This document shows, one piece after another, positions 9,764 to 36,570 of a stretch of DNA of 36,570 nucleotides (position 1 is the first letter of the stretch; the number at the start of each line of letters is the position of its first letter). A program made the position numbers and the translations under genes. The notes under the pieces are model-generated. The model was not told the DNA's origin. It did no database searches and saw only the letters and a list, made by a program, of their open reading frames with translations. The stretch lies in the IMG/VR virus record IMGVR_UViG_3300024346_000228, positions 1-36,570 of that record; one strand, 5' to 3'. The stretch is from a virus.

Positions 9764-10540
9764 TTATTTTCCCCAATGTTTTTCACGTAGTTCGTAAATA
9801 TCAATTGGTTCTCTTTTCATTTGATTTCCTGGATTGAAATAAGCACCCTCTTTTAAATAACCACATAAGAAGTTTCTTCTCATTCTTGTTGTATCTCTAT
9901 TTGGTTCACTACCATGTACTACATGTGAGTGTAATAGTGCTACTTGTCCTTTTCTTAAATATCCTTCAATCTTTTTAAAATCATGTCCTTCAGGCATTAC
10001 ACAACTCTTACCTCTCTCACTTCTCCAATTGCCTGTATTTGTTTTCTTTCTTTCCTCATTATCTTCAATTGGCAATGTAGGTAATCTATGCGAGCCTTCA
10101 TAATTCCAAACTGCTCCATTTTCAGGGTCGTGGTTATCTAATGCTAATGCTGTGTTTACAATTTCGTTATGCCCACATCCGGTGTAGAATGCATTTTGGT
10201 GCATATCTCTACCTAATTCACCTTTTGGTTTATAATAACCCCAAGTTTGCATTCCAACTACATTGCCTTCCATTAAGAATTCACATGCTTCCACAATTTT
10301 TGGATGTGAAAACATTTTTTCAACTTTTTCAGAAGTTTTGTGTGGGTGCATGATTGGTTCAAACTCTTGCCATTTTTCAGGTTCGTTTGCATTTCTTTCC
10401 AATCTTAATCTATCTAATTCTGCGTTTAATTCATTAACCTCATCTTCGGTTAATAATTCTAAAACTGTCCAACCTCTGTATCTCCAATCAAAGGTCATTT
10501 GTTGTCTTTCCTCAAAGGATAAGTGTTTGTATTCTTTCAT
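9764..10540 (-). CDS. phytanoyl-CoA dioxygenase-like (PhyH) protein
   Basis: This 258-residue protein is counted from ATG 10540 (MKEYKHLSF). The longer frame from 10591 would begin inside the predicted promoter, so the shorter start is preferred. It shows the PhyH double-stranded beta-helix layout: MHQNAFYTG (113-121), ENGAVWNYEGSH (140-151), and LLHSHVVHGSEPN with H209, then RMRRNF with R221/R222 for 2-oxoglutarate. Members hydroxylate substrates with Fe(II) and 2-oxoglutarate. The iron triad is normally H-x-D...H; here it reads H114-x-N116...H209, so iron binding or chemistry may be altered. The gene has its own promoter match and lies between the tail and replication regions. Substrate is unknown; nucleobase, protein or host metabolite are all open. 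Confidence 0.8.
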   Translation of the reverse strand: MKEYKHLSFEERQQMTFDWRYRGWTVLELLTEDEVNELNAELDRLRLERNANEPEKWQEFEPIMHPHKTSEKVEKMFSHPKIVEACEFLMEGNVVGMQTWGYYKPKGELGRDMHQNAFYTGCGHNEIVNTALALDNHDPENGAVWNYEGSHRLPTLPIEDNEERKKTNTGNWRSERGKSCVMPEGHDFKKIEGYLRKGQVALLHSHVVHGSEPNRDTTRMRRNFLCGYLKEGAYFNPGNQMKREPIDIYELREKHWGK

Positions 10541-10560
10541 AACTAATTTGTTTATATAAT

Positions 10561-10592
10561 TAAATATACAAAAAATTATTTTAATTACCAAA
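10561..10592 (-). promoter_or_regulatory. Bacteroidota-type promoter before PhyH gene
   Basis: TTTG (10592-10589), exactly 20 bases, then TATATTTA (10568-10561). The ATG at 10540 lies 20 bases downstream. The last -7 base is A instead of G. This supports 10540, not 10591, as the start. Confidence 0.55.
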
Positions 10593-21194: not shown

Positions 21195-23444
21195 TTATCC
21201 GTTAAAACTTGCACCAGTTGGTAAAATGTTGAAATCAATTTGAATGAATTCAGCTGTCTTAGTTGGTTGTAAGAAGATAGCCCCTTTCATAATGTTTCTA
21301 TCTATTACATCTGGTGTGTTATTAGTTTCATCCATTACCACTTTGAAAGCGTAAAGACCTTGTCTTTGTTGGATTGATTCTAAATACGGATTAGCGATGT
21401 TTAAAAATCTATTTCTAGTCTCTGCTGTGTTTTGTTCGAATACTAAGTAACGAGAAGTAGATGCGATATACTTTCTAACAGTCAATAATAATCTTCTTAC
21501 GTTGATTCTATCTAATGCTGATGGTTTATCTTGTAAAGTTTTTTGTCCAAATACAACGATACCTTGTCCAGGGAATTGTACGATTGGATTTACTTTTGCT
21601 TCATATAATTTATCTTTATCAGATTGAGTTAATCTATCTAATACACTAACTGCTCCTACTAATCCACCTCTATTCAAACCTGCTGGTGCGAACCACTCTG
21701 CTGCTACTCTATCGTTTGCTGCGAATACGCCAGGTAATAATACTGATGGTGGAATTGAAATTAATTTGTTTGTATTTACATCAATTGTCTTAACCCAAGG
21801 ATAATAAGTACCTACATAGTTAGAATCAATATCTGCTGAACCAAATTGTCCAATTGTTTCATCTAAAGTATGATTTGAACTACCCATATCACCTATAAAG
21901 AATGCATCTGCTCTATTTTCAACCATATCTACTATTTGTGTAAATAATGCATTATGGTCAATTTTATTAACACCTGGAACAACTACCATATTGATATCAT
22001 ATTCATCAGCGTTAGATAAAGCGTTAATATGCTTCATATATGCTACTGAACCACTTGTTGTTAGTGATGCTAAATTGAAACCTTGTGAGTTTCCGTTAGT
22101 GATAGAATCACCTTTAGCTATCGTAGTTGCCGGATTCATACCATCAAATCCTTCTTGGAATGCTACAACGAATTGTGCTAAAGAAGAACCTACTGATAAT
22201 GTACCACCATTTGCTGCATCCAATCCAAATACTGAATTAGAACCTACACCTGCTCCTGTCGGAATTGGCTTTAAGTAGATTGCGTTATCAGTATTGTTAT
22301 CCAAATCTATACCACCATATTGTGCTACTGATGAGGTTAAGAATGTTACAGATGGAATTGCAGAACCAATTAATGCTGATGCAGAAACTGGTAATTGATA
22401 TGCTGCGTGTCCAAATGGAACTGCTTGTACAGGAATTGAATCAGGTGATACATATGCCGTATCATTACTATTCCATACTCTAATATATTTTGAATTATTT
22501 ACCCAATCACCAAAATCAGTTACTTTACCATTACTATCAATTTCTCTATTTCTATCACCAATTACTCTACTAATATAGTTAGGAGAATTAGGGTCTAAGT
22601 TTACATTTGAATACGTTTCTAATACTGTTTTCTTTTTGTTAGTATCAGCGTAATCTCTTACAACTACAGTGAATGTACCATAATCAGTACCGGCAACTGA
22701 ACCAGCTGCTTTAATATTTGTGATACCAATTTTTATTTTAGTATTTGCTGAATTACCTGCTCCGATTGTGATGAACTTTAATAAATCGTATCTTTGTCCT
22801 GAAATAGTTTGAGATTTAATTGTTGGAGTTACTGCTTCCTGTGCATCAAATGTAAATAATTGGTTACCCAATACCGTTACACTTGCAGAAGTTGCAGATA
22901 CAAAATTCATAGATGTATTTTTGAAAAAACCATATGAATATGCTTCTTTAGTTCCAAATGGCGATGTTCCAAACACTGCTTCAATATCATTTATATCAGT
23001 TACATCCAAAGATGCTGAACCTAAAGTTGATAAGTTAAAATCGCCACCACCATCTAAATCTGTTAGTGTTTCTCCTGCAAATCCACCATTTGCACCTACT
23101 GCGGTATTGAAAAGAATACCCAATGATGCTGATACTGAACCAGAAGTTGCTGTTAATAATAAAGGTGCGGTTTCAGTATATCCACCAACACCTGCTACTC
23201 TACAAATAGTTGCTACGCCAGCTTCTCTTAAATAAGATTGTACTGCTAACGGAGTATAATATGTGTCATCAACTGTTCCAAATAATTGTTGGAATTCAGT
23301 TTGTGAATTTACGATTGTTGGTACTAATGGTCCTTCTTTAAAAGGTCCGATGAATGCTGCACCAATGTCAGCAACACCTTGTTGTAAGAATGAAAGGTCG
23401 TTTTCTTTTGTAAATACGCCTGGTGATACTATTTTGTCTGCCAT
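21195..23444 (-). CDS. 18: contractile tail sheath protein (gp18-like)
   Basis: This 749-residue sheath subunit surrounds the tail tube and contracts on infection. The N-terminus (SPGVFTKENDLSFLQQG) and FIGPFKEGPLVP (about 32-43) are typical. The C-terminal domain has WFAPAGLNRGGLVGAVSVLDRLTQSDKDKLYEAKVNPI, then FGQKTLQDKPSALDRINVRRLLLTVRKYI, and KGAIFLQPTKTAEFIQIDFNI at the end; all are classic sheath motifs. Length is close to T4 gp18 (659), with extra residues in a Ser/Thr/Gly-rich insert of the outer domain (about 75-420). It is followed by the tube gene. A TTTG-N19-TATATTTA element is upstream. Confidence 0.95.
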   Translation of the reverse strand: MADKIVSPGVFTKENDLSFLQQGVADIGAAFIGPFKEGPLVPTIVNSQTEFQQLFGTVDDTYYTPLAVQSYLREAGVATICRVAGVGGYTETAPLLLTATSGSVSASLGILFNTAVGANGGFAGETLTDLDGGGDFNLSTLGSASLDVTDINDIEAVFGTSPFGTKEAYSYGFFKNTSMNFVSATSASVTVLGNQLFTFDAQEAVTPTIKSQTISGQRYDLLKFITIGAGNSANTKIKIGITNIKAAGSVAGTDYGTFTVVVRDYADTNKKKTVLETYSNVNLDPNSPNYISRVIGDRNREIDSNGKVTDFGDWVNNSKYIRVWNSNDTAYVSPDSIPVQAVPFGHAAYQLPVSASALIGSAIPSVTFLTSSVAQYGGIDLDNNTDNAIYLKPIPTGAGVGSNSVFGLDAANGGTLSVGSSLAQFVVAFQEGFDGMNPATTIAKGDSITNGNSQGFNLASLTTSGSVAYMKHINALSNADEYDINMVVVPGVNKIDHNALFTQIVDMVENRADAFFIGDMGSSNHTLDETIGQFGSADIDSNYVGTYYPWVKTIDVNTNKLISIPPSVLLPGVFAANDRVAAEWFAPAGLNRGGLVGAVSVLDRLTQSDKDKLYEAKVNPIVQFPGQGIVVFGQKTLQDKPSALDRINVRRLLLTVRKYIASTSRYLVFEQNTAETRNRFLNIANPYLESIQQRQGLYAFKVVMDETNNTPDVIDRNIMKGAIFLQPTKTAEFIQIDFNILPTGASFNG

Positions 23445-23513: not shown

Positions 23514-25241
23514 TTATTTGTATGTTGGTGAGAAATAATTGTATGTTTGTGTTACTAATGTACCACTTTGTAATGTGTTGTAAAATAATACTGGTCCAAT
23601 TTGTCCATTCCAAAACGTTGTTCTTGCACTATTACTTCCTATTGTTAAGAAATTAGTAGATGATGGTGCCGTAAATGCTGCTGCGGTAAATGTTCCTACC
23701 GATGTTCCATCCACATATATTGTTACAGTTCCAGATGGTTGGAAAGTTGCTGAAATCATATACCAAACGTTTGCTGATAATGAAGTCGTTAATTGTGCAC
23801 TATTTCCCAATGTACTACCATAGAATTTTACTCTATTTAAAGTAGAACTATCTGATGATTCAATTGCTAAACCATAAAAACCTGCGTAATCAAAAATATG
23901 TCTTGATGCTACACCTAATGTTGTTGTAGGTCTTACCCACATATGAATAGTACCTGTATTAGTATTGAATTGAGAAATACCACCATTGATATTTGTAGTA
24001 GTATCTTTGTACCAAAATTGGTTTGTACCATTTCCTGCCCAATATTTTTCCTTTCTACTTGCTCCTGCATTATACGATGGGTTACCGCCTGTAATACTTG
24101 CTGCGTTTTGAACCCCTGCCGGCCTAACACCCGTATTCCATCCTGATAGGTCTAACCAATCAGCCGTTGCTGTACCTGCCGTTGATGATGCCTTTGATGG
24201 GTCAACATACATTCTTAATCCAGCCGATGGGATATATGGTTGAGTTGTTGTACCTTTGTTATGTGATACTACACCATTTGCTAAGTACACATCGGCGTTT
24301 TCTACGTTAATTGTTACAATTTCTACATCTTCGTTAATAATTGTAATATTATCAACTTCAACTTCACTTATACCAATTGTTTCATCATATGTTACTACTA
24401 AATCACCTATTAATATATCTTCTACGTTTTTAAAATGATATTTTTCAATTTCAGAATCCCAAACCCAAAGAGGATGCGTTCCAGTTGCTTTTATTAAGCC
24501 ATCATTTAATTGATAATATCCACTTGCAAAGTTAAATACAATATCGGCAACAGTTACATCTTGATATGCACCGGATGTAGAATCTTGCATATAGAATCTC
24601 CAATCAACTTGGTCGCTTTCTGAATCCTGACTTTCATCCGGTAACCCAGTCGGCACCCATGCTTTAATTGTATCTCCTACTGATAAATCTTCTACATTTA
24701 TAGTAGAACCATCTCCCTTTTTAATATGTGTACCAAATAGTAAACAAAAATCCGGTTGGTTGATTGTATTATAAACATCAACTGCGTATAAAGTTTTTGT
24801 AGCTGTAGTATTATAGTTTGTTGCATTTAGATTATATCCATCTGCATATGTCATTGATAATACTGAACTGGCTTCTGAATAAGAAGATTGTGCAATTGAT
24901 GCCGGTGTGATTGGAAATGATGGCGATGCTCCTAATGTTGGAGAACCTACTGAAAAGTTTGCATTACCAAATGATACCGTATAGTTTGCAGCAACACTAC
25001 CAACTTTTGTACCATGTAAAGTTCCCTGATTACTAAATGAAAAAGTTGCCGTTTCTTCGGTACTTTCTACTATATAAGTGTATGTTGGTAAATTGGCTGT
25101 TATAGAATCTACTGCGAATGCAGTAAATGAACTATTAGCAGTTGCACCACTTAGTCCACCAATTGAAACTGCTTGAGCAACTCTTGCCGAACCACTCACT
25201 GCTCTGTATAAATTCCCTAACGATAAATTTGTTCTTGCCAT
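23514..25241 (-). CDS. Hint (intein-like) domain protein with LamG-like C-terminus
   Basis: This 575-residue protein has three parts. Residues 1-165 are Ser/Thr/Ala-rich and beta-like. Residues 166-328 are a Hint domain: C166 in CLLFGTHIKKG, INVEDLSVGDTIKAW, T253-x-x-H256 in KATGTHPLWVW, and the C-terminal VYLANGVVSHN with H327-N328. Residues 336-575 form a concanavalin/LamG-like domain with SAGLRMYVDPSK, GTIHMWVRP, WYMISATF and TVTIYVDG. At 163 residues the insert has no homing endonuclease. The +1 residue is K329, not C/S/T, so normal splicing is unlikely; cleavage at one or both ends, as in bacterial intein-like domains, is more likely. It lies between the adhesin/glycosyltransferase genes and the tail sheath, so it may be a virion adhesin processed after synthesis. 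Confidence 0.78.
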   Translation of the reverse strand: MARTNLSLGNLYRAVSGSARVAQAVSIGGLSGATANSSFTAFAVDSITANLPTYTYIVESTEETATFSFSNQGTLHGTKVGSVAANYTVSFGNANFSVGSPTLGASPSFPITPASIAQSSYSEASSVLSMTYADGYNLNATNYNTTATKTLYAVDVYNTINQPDFCLLFGTHIKKGDGSTINVEDLSVGDTIKAWVPTGLPDESQDSESDQVDWRFYMQDSTSGAYQDVTVADIVFNFASGYYQLNDGLIKATGTHPLWVWDSEIEKYHFKNVEDILIGDLVVTYDETIGISEVEVDNITIINEDVEIVTINVENADVYLANGVVSHNKGTTTQPYIPSAGLRMYVDPSKASSTAGTATADWLDLSGWNTGVRPAGVQNAASITGGNPSYNAGASRKEKYWAGNGTNQFWYKDTTTNINGGISQFNTNTGTIHMWVRPTTTLGVASRHIFDYAGFYGLAIESSDSSTLNRVKFYGSTLGNSAQLTTSLSANVWYMISATFQPSGTVTIYVDGTSVGTFTAAAFTAPSSTNFLTIGSNSARTTFWNGQIGPVLFYNTLQSGTLVTQTYNYFSPTYK

Positions 25242-25252
25242 TGTATAAAGTG

Positions 25253-26251
25253 TTATTCTCCGTTATAAATATCTAAAAGTTTTTCTTTCCATTCATCTTT
25301 ATTAGAAAAGTATTTAATCATCCAATTTTTAAGTTTTTCAAATTCCGTTTTACGGGTTTCGTAATCATCCTCACATATTTTTTTGTAGGTCTCTCTAAAC
25401 GATAACGCATCACTCGCTTTGTATTTATAATCAAGTGGTACGTGCCATTTTTCATGTAGTATTGGAAGTTTTCCCCAATCCACTGCTTCAAAAATTCCAT
25501 ATCCGAATGGCTCATATTCAAAGCAAGAATGAGATATTCCCCAATCAAGTTCGTAGAACCTTTCTTTATATTTGTAATCAAACTTGTAAACTTTTGATTT
25601 CTCAAATTTGTATCCATATTTCTTTTTATAATATTTGTTGAATGTTTCTGAATTGGTAGAAATAAATCCACCTAATCCATCCATATATTCAACATTCTTT
25701 CTACCTTCAACTCTTGCTGCATATCCTAATTCTGTTGAGTTTGAAAGTTCTTTGTGTTTAGTAAATGTATAATTATTTGGAATATGATGTAAATTTTCCG
25801 TTTTATATGGAAAATGATATAATCCTACCCAAACTTTATTTTTAATTTTGTTTATTAATTCGTTTTCGTATTCCCAATTTCCGTACCAATGCAAGTATTC
25901 ATCTTTATCTTGCTGTGCCATTAAAGATACTTTGGTTAAATTATGGAAAACAATTGAATCAATTTTTTCTAAATTTTGATGAACTGCTTTTGTTGGTGTA
26001 TAATGACCATGTAATATGTGTACCCTTCTTGCACCTTCAAAGATTTTAATAATTTCATCTTCGTTGGTTTCCCAAATATGGTCAATATCAATCGGAAATT
26101 CTTCGTAATTTATGGGCTTTTTTCTATGGAAGAGAAGAAGTGGCTTAACTTCTAAGTTAGGTGCCACTTCTTTTATCCATTCGGTTACCCATATATCTGC
26201 TCCGCTGTTAAACCAAGGCCCACCAGCGGTGGTGTAGTAAACATCGTACAT
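25253..26251 (-). CDS. GT-B glycosyltransferase (GT4-like)
   Basis: This 332-residue protein looks like a GT-B fold glycosyltransferase. The donor-binding half has LGYAARVEGRKNVEYM (175-190), matching the G-R-x-x-x-x-K-N signature. Residues 246-264 read YEPFGYGIFEAVDWGKLPI, matching the family's E-x-F-G-x-x-x-x-E-A-x-x-x-G-x-P-(I/V) motif, which holds the nucleotide-sugar. The N-terminal YYTTAGGPWFNSGADIW may contact acceptor or donor. It begins three bases after the S74 fibre stop and ends 11 bases before the Hint protein start, inside the adhesin cassette. It could glycosylate Ser/Thr-rich fibre proteins or a host surface sugar; the sequence does not decide. Its start region carries a 10-bp inverted repeat at 26135-26172. 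Confidence 0.8.
   Translation of the reverse strand: MYDVYYTTAGGPWFNSGADIWVTEWIKEVAPNLEVKPLLLFHRKKPINYEEFPIDIDHIWETNEDEIIKIFEGARRVHILHGHYTPTKAVHQNLEKIDSIVFHNLTKVSLMAQQDKDEYLHWYGNWEYENELINKIKNKVWVGLYHFPYKTENLHHIPNNYTFTKHKELSNSTELGYAARVEGRKNVEYMDGLGGFISTNSETFNKYYKKKYGYKFEKSKVYKFDYKYKERFYELDWGISHSCFEYEPFGYGIFEAVDWGKLPILHEKWHVPLDYKYKASDALSFRETYKKICEDDYETRKTEFEKLKNWMIKYFSNKDEWKEKLLDIYNGE
25264..25273 (-). promoter_or_regulatory. late-type element GATATTTATA
   Basis: The minus strand reads TTTAGATATTTATAAC, 22 bases before the Hint-protein ATG. It lies inside the last codons of the glycosyltransferase gene (D-I-Y-N). Confidence 0.35.
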
Positions 26252-26254
26252 TAA

Positions 26255-28270
26255 TTATAAACCTATTTTTGCCTTCAATTCTTCAATTTGAATTTGTTGT
26301 TCTTTGATTGCTTCTACCATTAGACCCATCATTTTTGAGTAATCCAATGCTAAGAAACCATCTTGTCTTTCAATTACTACTTGTGGTAAAACTTCTTGTA
26401 CTTCCTGTGCTATCAAACCTGTTTTAGGGGTTGATTTTGTTACTTCATGTACATCATCATTCCATTCCCAAGTTACACCATTTAATTTAGATACTTTTTC
26501 TAAAGCGTTTGGTATAAGTTGAATATTATTTTTATGTCTTTTATCTGAAGTGTAGAATGCGGTAATATCACCCGTTGCAGTTATTGCTCCATTGATTGTT
26601 AAACCTGCGAAAGTCGGAGATGATGAAGTTGCTACTGCTTGTCCAATTGCAATTGTTGCATTTGAACCTTCTCCAGGAGTATGTGTAATAGTTACGCCGG
26701 TTCCTTGAGTTAAATCACTCATATAGTTACCCGTTGTATCAGTTCCTAATGCTACTGAATTTGCAGCTATTGTAGTTGCGAATGAAACGTTTGCTAAATT
26801 AGTAATAGTTCCCGTACCAGTCACATCACCTGTTAAAGTGATTGAGATATCTTTACCTTCTAAATTATCTAGTCTAGTTAATGCTGATGAACTAAATGTT
26901 TCCAAATTAGCCGTTTCAATTAATAAACTTGCAGTTATAGAGTTTAAATTAGTAATTGAAGTAGCTTGTGTACCATTCGTAGATAGTGCAGTAGATGCTG
27001 ATGCTTCTAATGCGGTTAATCTTGTTAAAGCCGAGCCACTAAATGTTTCTAAATTAGCCGTTTCAATCAATAAACTTGCAGTTGCAGAATTTAAATTGGT
27101 AATTGAAGTAGCTTGTGTACCATTTGTAGATAATGCGGTAGATGCTGATGCTTCTAATGCCGTTAATCTTGTATTTTGTGTTCCGTTAGTTGTATCGTTT
27201 GAACCAGTATATGTATTTAGATTACTTACTGAAACATTTACACTTCCGGATGTTGTTTCTAAATTGTTTAATCTTCCAACACTTGCAGTATAGAAAGATG
27301 CAAAAGCGGTATCGTTTGTTAAATCTACTGAATTAATTAAAGATACTATTTCTACAAATGTATCTTTATCTGCATCAGCTGCCGATAAAATTGCATCAAC
27401 TCTACCTTTTTCAGTTGTAATTCTACTATCTACTGATGTTGAATATGTTGAAAATCCGGTTGTTGATACTATATCAATTTGTGATGAACCCGAAACTATA
27501 CTTCTACCTTTTGTTTCGTATGATGAAGTTGCTGTATTTAAGTTTGCTACTGCGATTGTGTTTGCAGATGCTGAACTAATCAATGAACCACTAATTGTTG
27601 CTAATGCAGTATTTTGTGTTAATTGAGAACCACTAAATGTATTTAATGAATCTAATATTCCAATTACTTGTGATGAACCACTTACTACTCCGTTTGTTGC
27701 TGCTATTGCGCCGGTAATAGAAGTTGCGATTATTCTACCATTAACTGCTAATGAGCCAGTTACCGATGTTACTGCTAATGATGATGTACCAAATGAACTA
27801 TTACCATTTGCTACTATACCAGAATCCAATACCATTCCATTAGCTGCGTTAGATAGTGAACCTACTACCGTTCCCGCTGCTCCAACAAATTTGATTGAAC
27901 CTGTTGATATATAAAGGTCTCTCCAAAAATAATTTTCAGAACCTAAATCAAATGCGTTTGTTACTGATGGGATAAGTGATGAACTCAAAGATGCTACTAC
28001 ATTTACAGTATCGGATGATGCATCTCCTATTGTTAATTTTCCACCTAATGTTAGATTACCTGCAACATTTGCATTTCCGGTAATATCTAATCCAGAACCT
28101 GAAATTGCTCCAAAGTTTCCAGTACTTCCTGTTCCACCTGCTGATAATACGATATCGCCTGTTGCTCCACCCACTACCAATGTTCCCAATGTGGTATTCA
28201 CATATGGTTCTCCGAATGCTAATGAACCGGATTGTTGTGCGGTACTACCGCGTCTAAATTTAAGTCCCAT
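26255..28270 (-). CDS. tail fibre with S74 intramolecular chaperone
   Basis: This 671-residue fibre starts MGLKFRRGSTAQQSGSLAFG and EPYVNTTLGTLVVGG, an N-terminal module also seen in four-gene variants here and similar to the Mtd N-terminal domain. The middle is Ser/Thr/Ala-rich heptad-like stalk with two near-identical 49-residue repeats (STNGTQATSITNLNS). The last 100 residues are a peptidase S74 domain: S575-D-K-R-H-K580, then GLIAQEVQEVLPQ and an EAIKEQQIQIEELK coiled coil. S74 domains fold the trimeric fibre and then cut themselves off just before the Ser. It is followed three bases later by the glycosyltransferase. Confidence 0.88.
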   Translation of the reverse strand: MGLKFRRGSTAQQSGSLAFGEPYVNTTLGTLVVGGATGDIVLSAGGTGSTGNFGAISGSGLDITGNANVAGNLTLGGKLTIGDASSDTVNVVASLSSSLIPSVTNAFDLGSENYFWRDLYISTGSIKFVGAAGTVVGSLSNAANGMVLDSGIVANGNSSFGTSSLAVTSVTGSLAVNGRIIATSITGAIAATNGVVSGSSQVIGILDSLNTFSGSQLTQNTALATISGSLISSASANTIAVANLNTATSSYETKGRSIVSGSSQIDIVSTTGFSTYSTSVDSRITTEKGRVDAILSAADADKDTFVEIVSLINSVDLTNDTAFASFYTASVGRLNNLETTSGSVNVSVSNLNTYTGSNDTTNGTQNTRLTALEASASTALSTNGTQATSITNLNSATASLLIETANLETFSGSALTRLTALEASASTALSTNGTQATSITNLNSITASLLIETANLETFSSSALTRLDNLEGKDISITLTGDVTGTGTITNLANVSFATTIAANSVALGTDTTGNYMSDLTQGTGVTITHTPGEGSNATIAIGQAVATSSSPTFAGLTINGAITATGDITAFYTSDKRHKNNIQLIPNALEKVSKLNGVTWEWNDDVHEVTKSTPKTGLIAQEVQEVLPQVVIERQDGFLALDYSKMMGLMVEAIKEQQIQIEELKAKIGL
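26556..26614 (-). repeat. 59-base identity to 28626-28684
   Basis: These 59 bases are identical to 28626-28684. They encode F-A-G-L-T-I-N-G-A-I-T-A-T-G-D-I-T-A-F just before the S74 domain. Flanking sequence is much less alike, so this is a discrete homology joint. Confidence 0.9.
26860..27170 (-). repeat. 147-base tandem repeat in fibre
   Basis: Two copies of a 147-base unit are in phase (for example 26952 and 27099 start the same string). Each encodes 49 residues with a few substitutions. Confidence 0.8.
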
Positions 28271-28321
28271 TTTAGTTTACTCTTTTTTTTAGTTTAAAGT
28301 ACAAGAAATTCCCTATACCCT

Positions 28322-28331
28322 TATAAATATC
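28322..28331 (-). promoter_or_regulatory. late-type element GATATTTATA
   Basis: The minus strand reads AATAGATATTTATAAGG, 51 bases before the ATG at 28270, at the end of the upstream fibre gene. The rest of the 60-base gap shows no clear hairpin. Confidence 0.35.
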
Positions 28332-31249
28332 TATTTGTTTTCCAATCTATCAACTTTTGCAGATAATTCTTTTATTGCTTCAATTAAAAGTGGAATTATT
28401 TTTTCATAATTAACCCCTAAGTATCCATTATCTCTTTCTATTACTGCTTGTGGAAGTATTTTTTGTATTTCTTGTGCAATTACCCCAATATCATTTCCTT
28501 TCTTTGTATGAATTTCTTCAAAGCCTTCTTTCCAATCATATTCATTACCACTAATAGTTTCTACTTTTGATAATGCGTTTTGGATTGGTTGAATATTTTC
28601 TTTTAATCTTTCATCCGAAGTATAAAATGCGGTAATATCACCCGTTGCAGTTATTGCTCCATTGATTGTTAAACCTGCGAAAGTTGGTGTTGCTGCTGAA
28701 TCAATATTTTGTGGTGTTGAAAGCGTTACACTTGCATTATTTAATCCAGAACCTGCAACTACAATTTGATTTGCCGTACCTGTTATGGTTGCAACATAGT
28801 TTCCTATTTGTACCGATGAACTAAATAATCCACTACCTCCTAATATTTGAGATGAGCCACTTACAATACCAGTTACTTTTGAATTAAGATGTTGTGCTGA
28901 TAATGATGCGGATATATCTGATGCAATTTGAGATGAACCCGAAACTACTCCACTACCTCCTAATACTTGTGTGGAGCCTGATACTAATGTACGTGTAGAG
29001 CTTGCTATTGGTTCGAATAAGGAGCTTATTTGTGATGAACCACTAACTACCCCAGCTGGTAATAATAACTTCACCTGTAATGAGCCTGATACCAATGTAT
29101 GGGTTGCGGATGCTATTTCTTCTTTACCGGCAAAAACATTCATTATACCATCATTATAATCAGTAAATCCATCTAACTCACCAATTAGAATTTGAGCTGC
29201 TCCACTTACAACACCTACTGGCATTTGAGTCGAACTACTCCAAACTCCACTACCACCCAATACTTGCAATGAACCACTAATTACACCAATTGGGAGTAAT
29301 GGAACTATTTGCGAACTACCACTTACAATACCTCTACCCTTTGTTTCGTATGATGATGTTGCTGCTTCTAAATTATTTAATCTAACATTTGCTGAAGAAG
29401 TAAATGAATTTAATGAACCCGTTGTTTGTGCAATTGCTAAGAATTGTGCATTAAAATCCACTCCACCAAATGCAACGGTATTAATATAGGCAACTGATGC
29501 ACTTAATGTTAAGTAAGATGCGGTCATACTTGCTGTAAACGTATTAATATTAGAAACAGATGTATTTAAAGAAGATGTAGTTTGATAAATTGATATTAAT
29601 GAAGATGTTACACTTGCACTAAATAAATTTAAACTTCCGGTTGATGTTTCTAATAATGTTAATCTACTTAAAGTTGAACTACTGAATGTATTTAGACTTC
29701 CCGTTGATGCTTCTAATAATCCCAATCTAGTATTAGTAGATTCTGTAAATGAATTTAAACTTTGAGTAGTTTGATTAACACTTCCTGTATAATTTTCTAA
29801 TCTTGTAAATCTACCATCTACCGAAGTTGTATATGTTTGTAAATTATCAAATCTCGTATTAACATTTCCACTAAATGATTGTAATGTAACTACTGATGCA
29901 GTTAATGAAGCAATTGATGCAGTCATTAATGATGCGGAAGTATATAAACTTTCAGTTGCGGTATTTAACGATGCCGTTGTTTGATAAATAGATACTAATG
30001 AACTTGTTACACTTGCACTAAATAAATTTAGAGATGCAGTTGTTTGATAAATTGATACTAATGAACTTGTTACACTTGCTGTGAATACGTTTAAATCTCC
30101 CAATTGTGCCGATGATGATATAACACTATCTCCACCTGCTCTTAGTAACTTACTTTCGTTTGATAATGTTCCACCTTTCCAATAATCATTTGTAGAATCC
30201 CATAATAATGAACCTGATAACGTTGAGCCTCCGGTTGGGTCTTTGACTAATAAACCGCCATTTGCAATACCTGTACCATTTAATTCAATGATATTATCAC
30301 CCAATTGAATAGTTGTAGAGTTTACAGCGGTTGTAGTTCCATTTACTGTTAAATCTCCTGATATGGTTACATTTTGCCCACTTACACCTATTGCAGTTTT
30401 AAGAGATGCTGTATATGAGTTTAATTCTGCTATCGATAATACATTTGCCGAAGCAGTTGAAATTAATGAGCCTGTTATAGTTGCTAAATTACTATTTTCA
30501 GTTAGTTGTGAACTACTAAATGAGTTTAAATTTGTAATTGAAATTGTATTTGCCGATGCAGTTGAAATCAATGAACCAGATATAGTTGCTAAAGAATTAA
30601 ATCTAGTATCATATGAGCCTGATTTGGATTCTATTTCTCCTAATCTTTGTTCATGATTAGATGCAGTTAAAATTAACGAACCTGTTATAGTTGCTAAATT
30701 ACTATTTTGAGTTAATTGAGAACTACTAAATGAATTTAAATTTGTAACTGAAATTGTATTCGCAGATGCAGTTAAAATTAACGAACCCGAAATAGTTGCT
30801 AATGCAGTATTTTGAGTTAATTGAGAACCACTAAATGAATTTAAAGAATCTAATATTGATGTAATTTGAGATGAACCAGAAACTACACCATTTGTTGCTG
30901 CGATTGCCCCTGATATATTTGTAGCATATACATTTCTCCATTTTGCAGAAGTTGTACCTAAATCAATAGTGTTAGTTGGATTTGGTACTAAATTTGTAGT
31001 AAATACTCCCAATGCAGAAATATTATCCGCTGTTGCATTTCCTAAATATATACTACCGCTTAATGTGATATCACCTGTTAAATGAAGTGAACCTGTATTA
31101 ATGTCATTTAATTTAAGTAGAGTAATTTCTTTTGAACCATTTACCCCAACTATTAAATTTTCAGAAGTTTGGTCAACATATAACTCGCCTGCTGTCAGCG
31201 TTGGTTTATCGCCCGTTGTACCTCTTCTTAATTGAAATATAGCTGCCAT
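28331..31249 (-). CDS. long tail fibre with S74 chaperone
   Basis: This 972-residue fibre has the N-terminal module MAAIFQLRRGTTGDKPTLTA followed by GELYVDQTSENLIVG. It has Ser/Thr/Asn-rich stalk repeats, for example a 21-residue unit T-A-S-L-N-x-F-S-A-S-V-T-S-S-L-V-S-I-Y-Q-T repeated in tandem. A globular module with LGDNIIELNGTGIANGGLLV and LLWDSTNDYWKGG lies near 300-390. The C-terminus (875-972) is a peptidase S74 domain: S878-D-E-R-L-K883, then GVIAQEIQKILPQ. The module near 300-390 also occurs twice in the partial fibre upstream. TATATTTATA lies 19 bases before its start. Its role is host binding; S74 cleavage would release the final chaperone segment. Confidence 0.88.
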   Translation of the reverse strand: MAAIFQLRRGTTGDKPTLTAGELYVDQTSENLIVGVNGSKEITLLKLNDINTGSLHLTGDITLSGSIYLGNATADNISALGVFTTNLVPNPTNTIDLGTTSAKWRNVYATNISGAIAATNGVVSGSSQITSILDSLNSFSGSQLTQNTALATISGSLILTASANTISVTNLNSFSSSQLTQNSNLATITGSLILTASNHEQRLGEIESKSGSYDTRFNSLATISGSLISTASANTISITNLNSFSSSQLTENSNLATITGSLISTASANVLSIAELNSYTASLKTAIGVSGQNVTISGDLTVNGTTTAVNSTTIQLGDNIIELNGTGIANGGLLVKDPTGGSTLSGSLLWDSTNDYWKGGTLSNESKLLRAGGDSVISSSAQLGDLNVFTASVTSSLVSIYQTTASLNLFSASVTSSLVSIYQTTASLNTATESLYTSASLMTASIASLTASVVTLQSFSGNVNTRFDNLQTYTTSVDGRFTRLENYTGSVNQTTQSLNSFTESTNTRLGLLEASTGSLNTFSSSTLSRLTLLETSTGSLNLFSASVTSSLISIYQTTSSLNTSVSNINTFTASMTASYLTLSASVAYINTVAFGGVDFNAQFLAIAQTTGSLNSFTSSANVRLNNLEAATSSYETKGRGIVSGSSQIVPLLPIGVISGSLQVLGGSGVWSSSTQMPVGVVSGAAQILIGELDGFTDYNDGIMNVFAGKEEIASATHTLVSGSLQVKLLLPAGVVSGSSQISSLFEPIASSTRTLVSGSTQVLGGSGVVSGSSQIASDISASLSAQHLNSKVTGIVSGSSQILGGSGLFSSSVQIGNYVATITGTANQIVVAGSGLNNASVTLSTPQNIDSAATPTFAGLTINGAITATGDITAFYTSDERLKENIQPIQNALSKVETISGNEYDWKEGFEEIHTKKGNDIGVIAQEIQKILPQAVIERDNGYLGVNYEKIIPLLIEAIKELSAKVDRLENK
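28626..28684 (-). repeat. 59-base identity to 26556-26614
   Basis: This is the second copy of the homology joint before the S74 domain, in the 972-residue fibre. Paired with the first copy, it could allow exchange or deletion between the two fibre genes. Confidence 0.9.
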
Positions 31250-32614: not shown

Positions 32615-35600
32615 TTAATAAGTTCCACCATCGATTATACTAATTCTAGTTTCAATTGATGAACTGAATGTTGAGTATCCAGTTGTTTGTGTGATATCAA
32701 CTTGTATTGAACCACTTACTAACCCTGCCGGCTTACCAACTAAATTTTCAAATGTTGCTGCTGCCGTTGATGCACTTATTGCCGTTGCAACTGAACCACT
32801 ATATGTAGTAAATCCGGTCGTATCACTAATTGTAATTTGCGAAGAACCACTTACTATTCCTGCTGGTATAGAAGAAATACTTGCGTATGTAATTTGCGAA
32901 GAACCACTTACTATTCCTGCTGGTATAGAAGAAATACTTGCGTATGTAATTTGCGAAGAACCACTTACTATTCCTTCAACATTTAATTTAGTTTTAATTG
33001 TTGTATCAATAGAAGAAGTAAATGAATTTAAACTTGCAGTTGTTGTATTTAAATTAGAAACCGATATATTAACACTTGCAGAAGTTGATTCTAAATTTGT
33101 TAATCTACCATCTTGTGTATCATTCGTTGTTTTGGCAGTTGATGCTGATGCAATTAAACTTCCACTAACTACACCAATTTCAGTTAATCTTGTATCAACT
33201 GAAGCAGTGTAAACACCTAATGTATTATTTTGTGTTAATTGAGATGAACTGAATGAATTTATATTTGTTATTGAAACTCCTTGTGAGTCATTTGTTGTCT
33301 TAGCTGCCGATGCTGAAGCAATTAACGAACCACTTACAACTCCAATTTCAGTAAATCTAGTTTCAGCTGAAGAACTGAATGATTCGATGTTCGATAATCT
33401 AACTAATGCAGAAGAACTAAAAGAGTTTAAGTTTGTTATTGAAATTCCAGCTCCACTTCCTACCGATGCACTTAAAGCTGAAATTGAAGATGAAATAGAA
33501 CCACTAAAATCACCATATCCAGTTGTATTGGAAATAGTAATTTGTGCAGATGATGTAACAACATTATCACCTTCTGCTCTTAATAATTTAGATTCAGCTC
33601 CTGCTGCTCCTGCCTTCCAATAATCGTTTGTAGAATCCCAAAGTAAAGAACCACTTACCGTATTAGGTGCAGTTGGGTCTTTAACTAATAAACCACCATT
33701 TGCAGCGCCAGTACCATTCAATTCGATAATATTATCACCTAATTGAACTACGTTTGATTCTACTGCCGTTGTTGTACCTTTAACAGTTAAGTTACCTAAT
33801 ACTACTACATTAGAACCAGTTAATTCAAATGCTGTTTTTAATGAAGATGAATATGTGTTTAATGCTGCTACTGAAGTGTTTAAACTTGCAGAAGTTGTAT
33901 TTAAATTTGTAATACTTACACCTTGTGAATCGTTTGTAGTTTTAGCAGTTGATGCTGATGCAATTAATGAACCACTAACTACGCCGATTTCAGTTAATTG
34001 TGTTAATACTGAAGAACTAAATGAGTTTATGTTTGTTATTGAAACACCCTGCGAATCGTTTGTAGTTTTTGCTGTCGATGCTGATGCTATTAAACTTCCA
34101 CTTACAACTCCAATTTCAGTAAATCTTATATCAGCTGAAGAAGTGTGTAATTCAATATTTGTTAATCTAACTAATGCAGAAGAACTAAATGAGTTTAAGT
34201 TTGTTATCGAAACTCCTTGTGAATCGTTTGTTGTTTTAGCTGCTGATGCTGATGCTATCAAACTTCCACTAACTACACCAATTTCAGTAAATCTAGTTTC
34301 TGCTGATTGTGTAAATAAGTTTTGATTTGCGTTTGCAACTGCTGCTGCCGATGCTGAACTAATCAATGAACCACTAACAACTCCTATTTCAGTAAATCTA
34401 GTTTCTGCTGATTGTGTAAATAAGTTTTGATTTGCGTTTGCAACTGCTGCTGCCGATGCTGAAAGAATTAAACTACCACTAACAACTCCAATTTCAGTAA
34501 ATCTTTCATTCGCAGATGCAGTATGTGCATTTAATGCGGTTGTAGATGTGTTTGAAGAAGTGTAAGCGTTTAATGCATCAATTGATGTTTGTTGTGATGC
34601 GGATGATGTATTTAATGCTGCTACTGAAGTGTTTAAACTTGCAGTTGTACTATTAATATTAGTTACTGAAATGTTTAAACTTGCAGTAGTTGAGTTTAAA
34701 TTAGTTACTGAAATATTAACACTTGCTGAAGTTGATTCTAAGTTTGTTAATCTTCCTAAGTTTGAACCACTTACAACATTTAATGCGTCAATACTAATTT
34801 GCTGTGATGCAGATGATGTGTTTAATGCTGCTACCGAAGTATTAACACTTGCACTAAATGTATTTAAGTTTGTTATTGAAACACCTTGTGAGTCATTTGT
34901 TGTCTTAGCTGCCGATGCTGAAGTGATTAAACTTCCACTTACTACACCGATTTCAGTTAATTGTGTTAATACCGAAGAACTAAATGAATTTATATTCGTA
35001 ATTGAAACACCCTGTGAATCATTTGTTGTTTTTGCAGCGGATGCTGATGCTATTAAACTTCCACTTACTACACCGATTTCAGTAAATCTATCATTTGCAG
35101 ATGCTGTAAATGCGTTTAGAGCGGTTGTAGAAGTATTAGAAGAAGTATAACTATTTAATGCATCTATACTTGTTTGTTGAGATGCAGATGAAGTATTCAA
35201 TGCTGCTACTGAAGTGTTTAAACTTGCAGTAGTTGATTCTAAGTTTGTTAATCTACCTAAAGTAGAACCACTAAATGTATTTAAAGATGCGGATGAAACA
35301 TTCAATGCATCTATACTAATTTGTTGTGATGCAGTTGAACTATTTAATGCCGTTACTGAAGTATTTACACTTGCACTAAATGAATTTAAGTTTGTAATAC
35401 TTACACCCTGTGAGTCATTTGTAGTTTTTGCTGCTGATGCTGAAGCGATTAAACTTCCACTAACAACTCCGATTTCAGTAAATTGAGTTAATGCTGAAGA
35501 ACTGAATGAGTTTAAGTTGGTTATAGAAACTCCTTGTGAATCGTTTGTAGTTTTAGCCGTTGATGCTGATGCTATCAAACTTCCACTTACAACGCCGATT

Positions 35601-36570
35601 TCAGTTAATTGCGATAATACCGATGAACTGAATGAGTTTATATTTGTAATACTTACACCCTGCGAATCGTTTGTAGTTTTTGCTGCCGATGCTGATGCTA
35701 TCAAACTTCCACTAACAACACCAATTTCAGTTAATCTTGTATCAACACTTCCTGATTTAGATTCTAAATTATTTAATCTAATGTCTTGTGTATCATTTGT
35801 AGATTTTGCAGTTGATGCTGAAGCGATTAATGAACCACTTACAACTCCAATTTCAGTTAATCTTGTATCAACACTTGCAGTATAGTTTCCTAATGTACCA
35901 TTTTGAGTTAATTGAGATGAACTGAATGAGTTTAAGTTTGTTATTGAAACTCCAACCCCTGAACCTACGTTTGCAACAACTGCTGCAATTGATGCTGAAA
36001 CTGAACCACTAAAATCACCATATCCAGTTGTTGATGAAATAGTAATTTGAGATGAACCACTTACTACACTATCTCCACCTGCTACTAATACTTTTGATTC
36101 ACTTGCAAATTTACCAGCTTTCCAGTAATCGGCAGTTACATCCCAAAGTAAAGAACCCGAAGTAGTTGATACTCCCGTTGCATCTCTTACAATAATACCA
36201 CCATCAGAAGTTCCAGCTGCATTTAATTGTAAAACGTTATCTGCTAAATTGATTGTTGTTGAATCAACCGTTGTTTGAGTACCCTGTACATATAAGTCAC
36301 CTTTAATAGTAGTATTACCATTAAAAGTTACATTAACACCACTTGCAGTAAATGCTTGTTTTAATGAAGATGAATATGAGTTTAATTCCGTTACTGAAGT
36401 ATTTAAACTCGCAGTAGTTAAATTTATATTTGTTATTGAAACTCCTTGTGAGTCGTTTGTTGTTTTTGCAGCGGATGCTGATGCTATCAAACTACCACTA
36501 ACTACACCAATTTCAGTAAATCTATCATTTGCAGAACCTGTGAATGTATTTAAAGCGTTAGTCGATACAT
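32615..36570 (-). CDS. giant repetitive tail fibre, N-terminus outside window
   Basis: The frame is open through the window edge: codons from 36568 read V-S-T-N-A-L-N-T-F-T-G-S and continue without a stop. At least 1317 residues are visible, ending SIIDGGTY. It is made mostly of a repeated segment E-I-G-V-V-S-G-S-L-I-(A/S)-S-A-S, 14 copies, many followed by A-K-T-T-N-D-S-Q-G-V-S-I-T-N. Ser, Thr, Ala and Asn dominate and the pattern suggests trimeric coiled coil. Two globular modules interrupt it, with LADNVLQLNAAGTSDGGIIV and LGDNIIELNGTGAANGGLLV. Three copies of V-S-G-S-S-Q-I-T-Y/I-type 19-residue units lie near the C-terminus. No S74 domain ends it. It is probably a long tail fibre for host binding. 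Confidence 0.82.
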   Translation of the reverse strand, partial: VSTNALNTFTGSANDRFTEIGVVSGSLIASASAAKTTNDSQGVSITNINLTTASLNTSVTELNSYSSSLKQAFTASGVNVTFNGNTTIKGDLYVQGTQTTVDSTTINLADNVLQLNAAGTSDGGIIVRDATGVSTTSGSLLWDVTADYWKAGKFASESKVLVAGGDSVVSGSSQITISSTTGYGDFSGSVSASIAAVVANVGSGVGVSITNLNSFSSSQLTQNGTLGNYTASVDTRLTEIGVVSGSLIASASTAKSTNDTQDIRLNNLESKSGSVDTRLTEIGVVSGSLIASASAAKTTNDSQGVSITNINSFSSSVLSQLTEIGVVSGSLIASASTAKTTNDSQGVSITNLNSFSSSALTQFTEIGVVSGSLIASASAAKTTNDSQGVSITNLNSFSASVNTSVTALNSSTASQQISIDALNVSSASLNTFSGSTLGRLTNLESTTASLNTSVAALNTSSASQQTSIDALNSYTSSNTSTTALNAFTASANDRFTEIGVVSGSLIASASAAKTTNDSQGVSITNINSFSSSVLTQLTEIGVVSGSLITSASAAKTTNDSQGVSITNLNTFSASVNTSVAALNTSSASQQISIDALNVVSGSNLGRLTNLESTSASVNISVTNLNSTTASLNISVTNINSTTASLNTSVAALNTSSASQQTSIDALNAYTSSNTSTTALNAHTASANERFTEIGVVSGSLILSASAAAVANANQNLFTQSAETRFTEIGVVSGSLISSASAAAVANANQNLFTQSAETRFTEIGVVSGSLIASASAAKTTNDSQGVSITNLNSFSSSALVRLTNIELHTSSADIRFTEIGVVSGSLIASASTAKTTNDSQGVSITNINSFSSSVLTQLTEIGVVSGSLIASASTAKTTNDSQGVSITNLNTTSASLNTSVAALNTYSSSLKTAFELTGSNVVVLGNLTVKGTTTAVESNVVQLGDNIIELNGTGAANGGLLVKDPTAPNTVSGSLLWDSTNDYWKAGAAGAESKLLRAEGDNVVTSSAQITISNTTGYGDFSGSISSSISALSASVGSGAGISITNLNSFSSSALVRLSNIESFSSSAETRFTEIGVVSGSLIASASAAKTTNDSQGVSITNINSFSSSQLTQNNTLGVYTASVDTRLTEIGVVSGSLIASASTAKTTNDTQDGRLTNLESTSASVNISVSNLNTTTASLNSFTSSIDTTIKTKLNVEGIVSGSSQITYASISSIPAGIVSGSSQITYASISSIPAGIVSGSSQITISDTTGFTTYSGSVATAISASTAAATFENLVGKPAGLVSGSIQVDITQTTGYSTFSSSIETRISIIDGGTY
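32831..32976 (-). repeat. 57-base tandem repeat, 2.5 copies
   Basis: Exact units begin at 32831, 32888 and 32945, and the third diverges after 32975. Each encodes 19 residues with the core V-S-G-S-S-Q-I-T-Y-A-S-I-S-S-I-P-A. Perfect identity suggests recent duplication. Confidence 0.95.
33160..36515 (-). repeat. array of 14 fibre repeats (EIGVVSGSLI core)
   Basis: Copies of the core lie near 33162, 33331, 33981, 34108, 34276, 34377, 34478, 34943, 35062, 35465, 35590, 35712, 35840 and 36501. Spacing is often 100-130 bases but is irregular. Amino acids are more conserved than bases, so most copies are old or gene-converted; some neighbours are nearly identical. Confidence 0.9.
34281..34490 (-). 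repeat. 105-base tandem repeat in fibre
   Basis: Two adjacent units start at 34281 and 34386 and the next block starts at 34491. Each encodes 35 residues including A-V-A-N-A-N-Q-N-L-F-T-Q-S-A-E-T-R. They differ at few bases. Confidence 0.9.

Follow-up and report, generated by a model that had tools for sequence, protein, structure and literature searches.

Class 1 (mobile) inteins carry Cys, Ser or Thr at the +1 position and are distributed sporadically, with intein-free alleles. The Hog domain of Hedgehog proteins occupies a C-terminal position and comes with a sterol-recognition region, and B-type bacterial intein-like (BIL) domains lack an intein-like block G. To our knowledge, the natural roles of BIL domains are poorly defined. 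A-type BIL domains possess Cys1 and a C-terminal His-Asn pair and have no nucleophile at +1; a thioester forms at their N-terminus and C-terminal cleavage proceeds through Asn cyclization (PMC4031507, PMC7664689). Their products are mainly cleaved, and ligation can occur through attack of the released amine on the thioester (PMC4031507, PMC7664689). GenBank already records Hint domains in tail proteins of phages, under the annotation 'intein domain'. A description of a phage-tail BIL domain was not found in the literature searched, the journal coverage of which is incomplete, so that one may exist. What is new here is a BIL domain that is obligate in a phage group, together with an invariant lysine at +1, two kinds of C-terminal part and a partner gene.

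A Hint domain in the tail gene cluster of a large phage

The Hint gene belongs to a large uncultured phage, represented here by a window of 36,570 nt, i.e., the whole stretch of DNA that was analyzed. It is located on the minus strand (23514..25241), encodes 575 amino acids and has exactly the boundaries given in a first-pass annotation of the window. The gene adjoins that of the tail sheath (21195..23444, minus strand; PF04984, E 2.3e-17; phrog_23, E 1e-68). Two tail-fibre genes (26255-28270 and 28331-31249, together spanning 26255..31249, minus strand; phrog_5668) end in Peptidase_S74 chaperone domains (PF13884, E 3.6e-17 and 4e-17). The order of transcription runs from these fibre genes through a 332-aa gene and the Hint gene to the tail sheath and tail tube. 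Judged by this gene position, the 575-aa product would be a virion protein.

Elsewhere in the window, an ORF at 32615-36490 encodes 1291 fibre-like residues from a TTG start, with near-repeats of the kind VDTRLTEIGVVSGSLIASAS, and probably belongs to a longer repetitive fibre that continues past the end of the window. The ORF at 9764-10591 resembles, by eye, phytanoyl-CoA-dioxygenase-like 2OG oxygenases. Neither tRNA nor Rfam RNA was found in the 36,570 nt.

The protein consists of an N-part (residues 1-165; 24747..25241, minus strand), a Hint domain (residues 166-328; 24258..24746, minus strand) and a C-part (residues 329-575; 23517..24257, minus strand), and the fragment lengths of 165, 163 and 247 residues proposed earlier were reproduced by computation. 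The N-part is predicted to be rich in beta structure, and a conserved KTxYxVDxY motif immediately precedes the Hint domain. Its description as Ser/Thr-rich holds (27%) but applies equally to the C-part (26%). A LamG-like character had been suggested for the C-part, and Laminin_G_3 of Pfam indeed matches residues 423-556 (23574-23975, minus strand) with an E of 1.3e-16, while ConA-like lectin folds were retrieved by Foldseek. This fold class suggests that the LamG part could bind host glycans. Homologues of the 575-aa protein, 71-100% identical, were found at 80 IMG/VR loci.

All active-site residues were placed in the sequence as the first-pass annotation had claimed. C166, the N-terminal nucleophile of the Hint domain (24744..24746, minus strand), is the sole cysteine of the protein and is invariant in 81/81 close homologues and in 50/50 more distant representatives. 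The block B motif T253-G-T-H256 (24474..24485, minus strand) retains T253 and H256 in all 50. Block G is formed by H327-N328, followed by K329-G330 at +1 and +2 (24252..24263, minus strand). At the block F position, our own alignment shows Thr or Ser in the phage Hint domains; many inteins have Asp there, a difference that counts against a functional A-type BIL domain.

Taken alone, the domain is matched weakly by Pfam (Hint_2, E 0.056). A profile built from the 50 representatives matches the BIL domain 2lwy (E 2.1e-6, profile positions 92-175) and BIL2 6y75/6tmm (E ~3.7e-6). As the AF2 model of the full-length protein was poor (pLDDT 58), residues 154-342 were modelled alone with the 50 sequences, resulting in a pLDDT of 82 and a pTM of 0.80. 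Foldseek returned BIL2 6y75 as best fold for this model (E 1.4e-9, TM 0.77 on target); 2lwy of Clostridium thermocellum (Cth-BIL, TM 0.81 on target) and Hedgehog 1at0 (TM 0.73) were also among the best folds. A Hint fold around C166 and N328, the presence of which the first-pass annotation had asked to be checked by structure prediction, is thus present in the model.

The domain shows every sequence and fold feature of A-type BIL domains that we tested: the Hint horseshoe fold, Cys1, TxxH, His-Asn, absence of Cys, Ser or Thr at +1, and similarity to 2lwy. Cleavage at one or both ends would therefore be expected. The earlier description is supported in that a lectin-like protein of the tail cluster holds a Hint/BIL domain whose active site looks intact and which has no Cys/Ser/Thr at +1, and the proposed comparison with A- and B-type domains favors the A-type layout. 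Its further proposals, an adhesin role and cross-linking at host contact, would be hypothetical. A B-type BIL domain was excluded by the His-Asn of block G, present and invariant in 50/50 sequences. A Hog domain was rejected as well, since the Hint domain is not C-terminal and the 247-aa LamG-like C-part comes after it. Fold and conservation together rule out a chance motif.

Conservation, the +1 lysine and the partner gene

In all 81 close homologues, residues C166, T253, T255, H256, P257, S326, H327, N328, K329 and G330 are retained. The 50 IMG/VR representatives were selected at below 80% identity (mean 48%, minimum 30%), and they agree throughout at only 17 of 189 query positions, including C166, T253, H256, H327, N328 and K329. 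The +1 lysine is thus found in 50/50 and the +2 glycine in 49/50 of these sequences, some of which stem from a scan seeded on HNK. For this reason the cleaner figure for Lys+1 comes from the scans that were not seeded on the motif, with the HNK-seeded scan left out: HNKG is present in 92 of 93 distinct sequences, the remaining one having no readable HN.

A single ORF spans N-part and Hint domain in 349 of the 352 records, a count that takes in overlapping records of the same contigs. One frame-broken contig (two records) and one contig end account for the three exceptions. In L182 (6010-7649; same contig as L340), a frame break just past the start of the Hint domain splits the Hint gene, which may reflect an assembly error or a true mutation. 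A Hint-free allele was found neither among the 352 records of the N-part nor among 76 loci of the partner gene described below.

The first-pass annotation had treated K329 as a residue other than Cys, Ser or Thr. The lysine is there, but that reading is incomplete, since the residue is invariant. In the non-seeded scans the +3 position varies, unlike +1. Several clades carry a LamG-like C-part of 220-257 aa, and another clade has a C-part of ~100 aa, for which weak fn3 matches were obtained in two of five sequences tested (E 0.0003 and 0.002). The His-Asn-Lys junction is identical with either kind. As the LamG-like and Fn3-like kinds belong to different Hint clades, a deep replacement is indicated, and frequent shuffling need not be assumed. 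Of the other phage tail Hint proteins examined, those of the Erwinia group have Thr at +1, and phage NCTB has two proteins with Ala and one with Lys there. Lys+1 also occurs in a Hint protein of the uncultured phage LR756508, which ends two residues past the Asn (HNKH). The lysine might help to resolve the thioester; a role in C-terminal cleavage or in folding is just as possible.

Directly upstream of the Hint gene lies a conserved, unannotated gene of 332 aa (25253..26251, minus strand), which the first-pass annotation did not mention. It occupies this position in every close homologue whose contig reaches far enough, and the two genes adjoin at 75 of 76 partner-gene loci examined, the last being cut by a contig end. 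Its sole relative among 50,697 phage records (35%, E 5e-56) is located in LR756508, which has a genome of 484 kb, directly downstream of the Hint protein ending in HNKH. Tail sheath and RecA comparisons place LR756508 and Microcystis phage Mel-JY01 among the nearest named relatives of the window's phage; Flavobacterium phage immuto is among the nearest by sheath only. Searches of Mel-JY01 and immuto turned up neither Hint domain nor partner, an empty answer that constitutes weak evidence. With both genes present in LR756508 and neither found in the other two, partner and Hint tend to co-occur, whatever the flanking domains. The partner protein gave no significant match in Pfam, PHROGs or PDB profiles, and hhalign reached E 0.15-0.25. 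A segment of it, EPFGYGIFEAVDWGKLPI (EPFGYGIFEA), is similar to the EX7E motif known from GT-B glycosyltransferases, and from this one motif a glycosyltransferase may be guessed.

Predicted processing and competing readings

We regard it as fairly likely that the insert is a functional, non-mobile A-type BIL domain that has become fixed in a protein of the phage structural region. The protein would probably be cut after translation and perhaps re-joined. Autocleavage at one or both junctions appears likely, and ligation as the main outcome seems doubtful. We infer the chemistry, the balance between cleavage and ligation and the role in the virion as follows. The peptide bond between F165 and C166 would be converted to a thioester on C166 with assistance of T253 and H256. 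Cyclization of N328, assisted by H327, would then free the C-part with Lys329-Gly330 as its new N-terminus. Finally, the thioester of the N-part would be hydrolyzed or attacked by an amine, for which the invariant Lys+1 would be the nearest donor, so that N-part and C-part could become joined and the Hint domain left out. The products foreseen have computed masses of 17.1 kDa (N-part), 18.1 kDa (Hint) and 26.4 kDa (C-part), from a precursor of 61.6 kDa, and a joined N+C species of 43.5 kDa would be possible.

In a narrower form of this explanation, processing stops at cleavage: the thioester is hydrolyzed and two structural proteins arise in equal amounts from one ORF. That A-type BIL domains yield mainly cleaved products (PMC4031507, PMC7664689) speaks for it, and we consider it a serious contender that falls a little short of probable; it leaves the invariant Lys+1 unexplained, and C-terminal cleavage in LR756508 would free just two residues. 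If instead the side-chain amine of Lys+1 attacked the C166 thioester, N-part and C-part would be linked by an isopeptide and Asn cyclization would free the Hint domain. The constancy of Lys+1 with LamG-like and Fn3-type C-parts and in LR756508, next to a variable +3 and a nearly fixed Gly+2, is in line with such a reaction. Most of the other phage tail Hint proteins examined do without Lys+1, however, and the residue may serve C-terminal cleavage or folding instead, which makes this reading unlikely. An external acceptor, such as a sugar or a virion component that the partner delivers, might also attack the N-part thioester in a Hedgehog-like transfer. The linkage of partner and Hint domain does hold in LR756508 despite an unrelated N-part and a missing C-part, and the two related isolates appear to lack both. 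Nevertheless, the partner is a glycosyltransferase by one motif only, there is no known acceptor, and the His-Asn of block G is unlike Hedgehog, so that we rate a transfer of this type as very unlikely.

Two further readings dispense with a working, fixed domain. An inactive relic, kept merely as a structural spacer, would hardly have preserved the Cys, Thr, both His and the Asn invariantly in a domain that varies down to 30% identity; conservation of this strength speaks against loss of activity, an option we hold to be about as unlikely as side-chain ligation. For an ordinary mobile intein one can cite the Hint fold and the annotation 'intein domain' of related proteins in Erwinia phage Y3 and in NCTB. 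Against it stand the length of 163 residues, with no room for an endonuclease, the lack of a +1 Cys, Ser or Thr, and an insertion outside any conserved enzyme motif. Furthermore, empty alleles were not encountered in the records searched, and an N-part that, truncated or frame-broken records aside, never occurs without Hint points away from a mobile intein, which we find scarcely credible here.

For the favored A-type BIL domain, a large phage group that keeps it in a single gene slot offers a concrete, testable setting in which to ask what purpose BIL domains serve. A candidate is the maturation of a phage protein after translation, possibly with a non-standard ligation. The most far-reaching version, to which we give little credence, is that a Hint domain with an obligatory Lys+1 would join the N-part through the side chain to the lectin-like C-part or to another molecule, while the partner would control the reaction or supply the acceptor. 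If true, joining via the lysine side chain would amount to an isopeptide-forming version of protein splicing.

Relation to known Hint and self-processing systems

Searches for further relatives gave little. Of two scans of bacterial genome contigs, one retrieved no relative of the tail Hint domain and the other gave a single short partial match for another Hint, and a viral scan with the LR756508 Hint protein as query produced no match. Four related phages encode a second, unrelated Hint protein (509-773 aa) at a distance from the tail locus (L390 1777-3303, L391 1706-3265, L392 1426-3648 and L393 1536-3854, the last on the minus strand). Its N-part begins with MKGT...LEINT and is followed by a Hint domain and a Cys-rich tail or by two or three tandem Hint domains, with a variable +1 residue (T, S, C, K, A or L). 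Neighboring genes resemble, by eye, sulfotransferases and 2OG-Fe(II) oxygenases.

The Hint protein of LR756508 (L083 5113-6411) shares the adjacent partner gene and Lys+1 with the protein described here, but differs in its unrelated N-part, the lack of a C-part and a block B in which Thr/His is replaced by Ser/Gln, a change by which the N-terminal chemistry may have been lost. The tail Hint proteins of jumbo phages (Erwinia Y3 and SNUABM_32; NCTB), of which those of Y3 and NCTB are annotated in GenBank as 'contains intein domain', have the Cys and His-Asn and likewise reside in tail or fibre gene neighborhoods. Their Hint domains, however, end ~10 residues or less from the C-terminus, follow collagen-like or other N-parts and mostly have Thr or Ala at +1, and the partner gene was not found with them. 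The NCTB tail region encodes three such proteins (L219 3960-5477 and 5480-5938; L381), one of them a stand-alone Hint domain of 153 aa that ends in VHNKVD.

BIL2 of Tetrahymena BUBL1 (6y75, 6tmm) is the top fold match and a profile match, but belongs to a eukaryotic gene with other flanking domains. The Clostridium thermocellum BIL domain 2lwy is alike in fold, is the best profile match and shares Cys1, TxxH, His-Asn and the absence of a +1 Cys, Ser or Thr. In comparison to 2lwy, the phage domain, known here from its sequence, is located in a tail gene cluster, has an invariant Lys+1 and a near-invariant Gly+2, and is accompanied by a LamG-like or Fn3-like C-part and a fixed partner gene. Peptidase_S74 is a known self-processing module of phage fibres. 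The chaperone domains of this family in the neighboring fibre genes resemble the Hint domain in that respect, yet are unrelated to it in fold and chemistry, and the tail cluster may thus use two unrelated self-cleaving systems.
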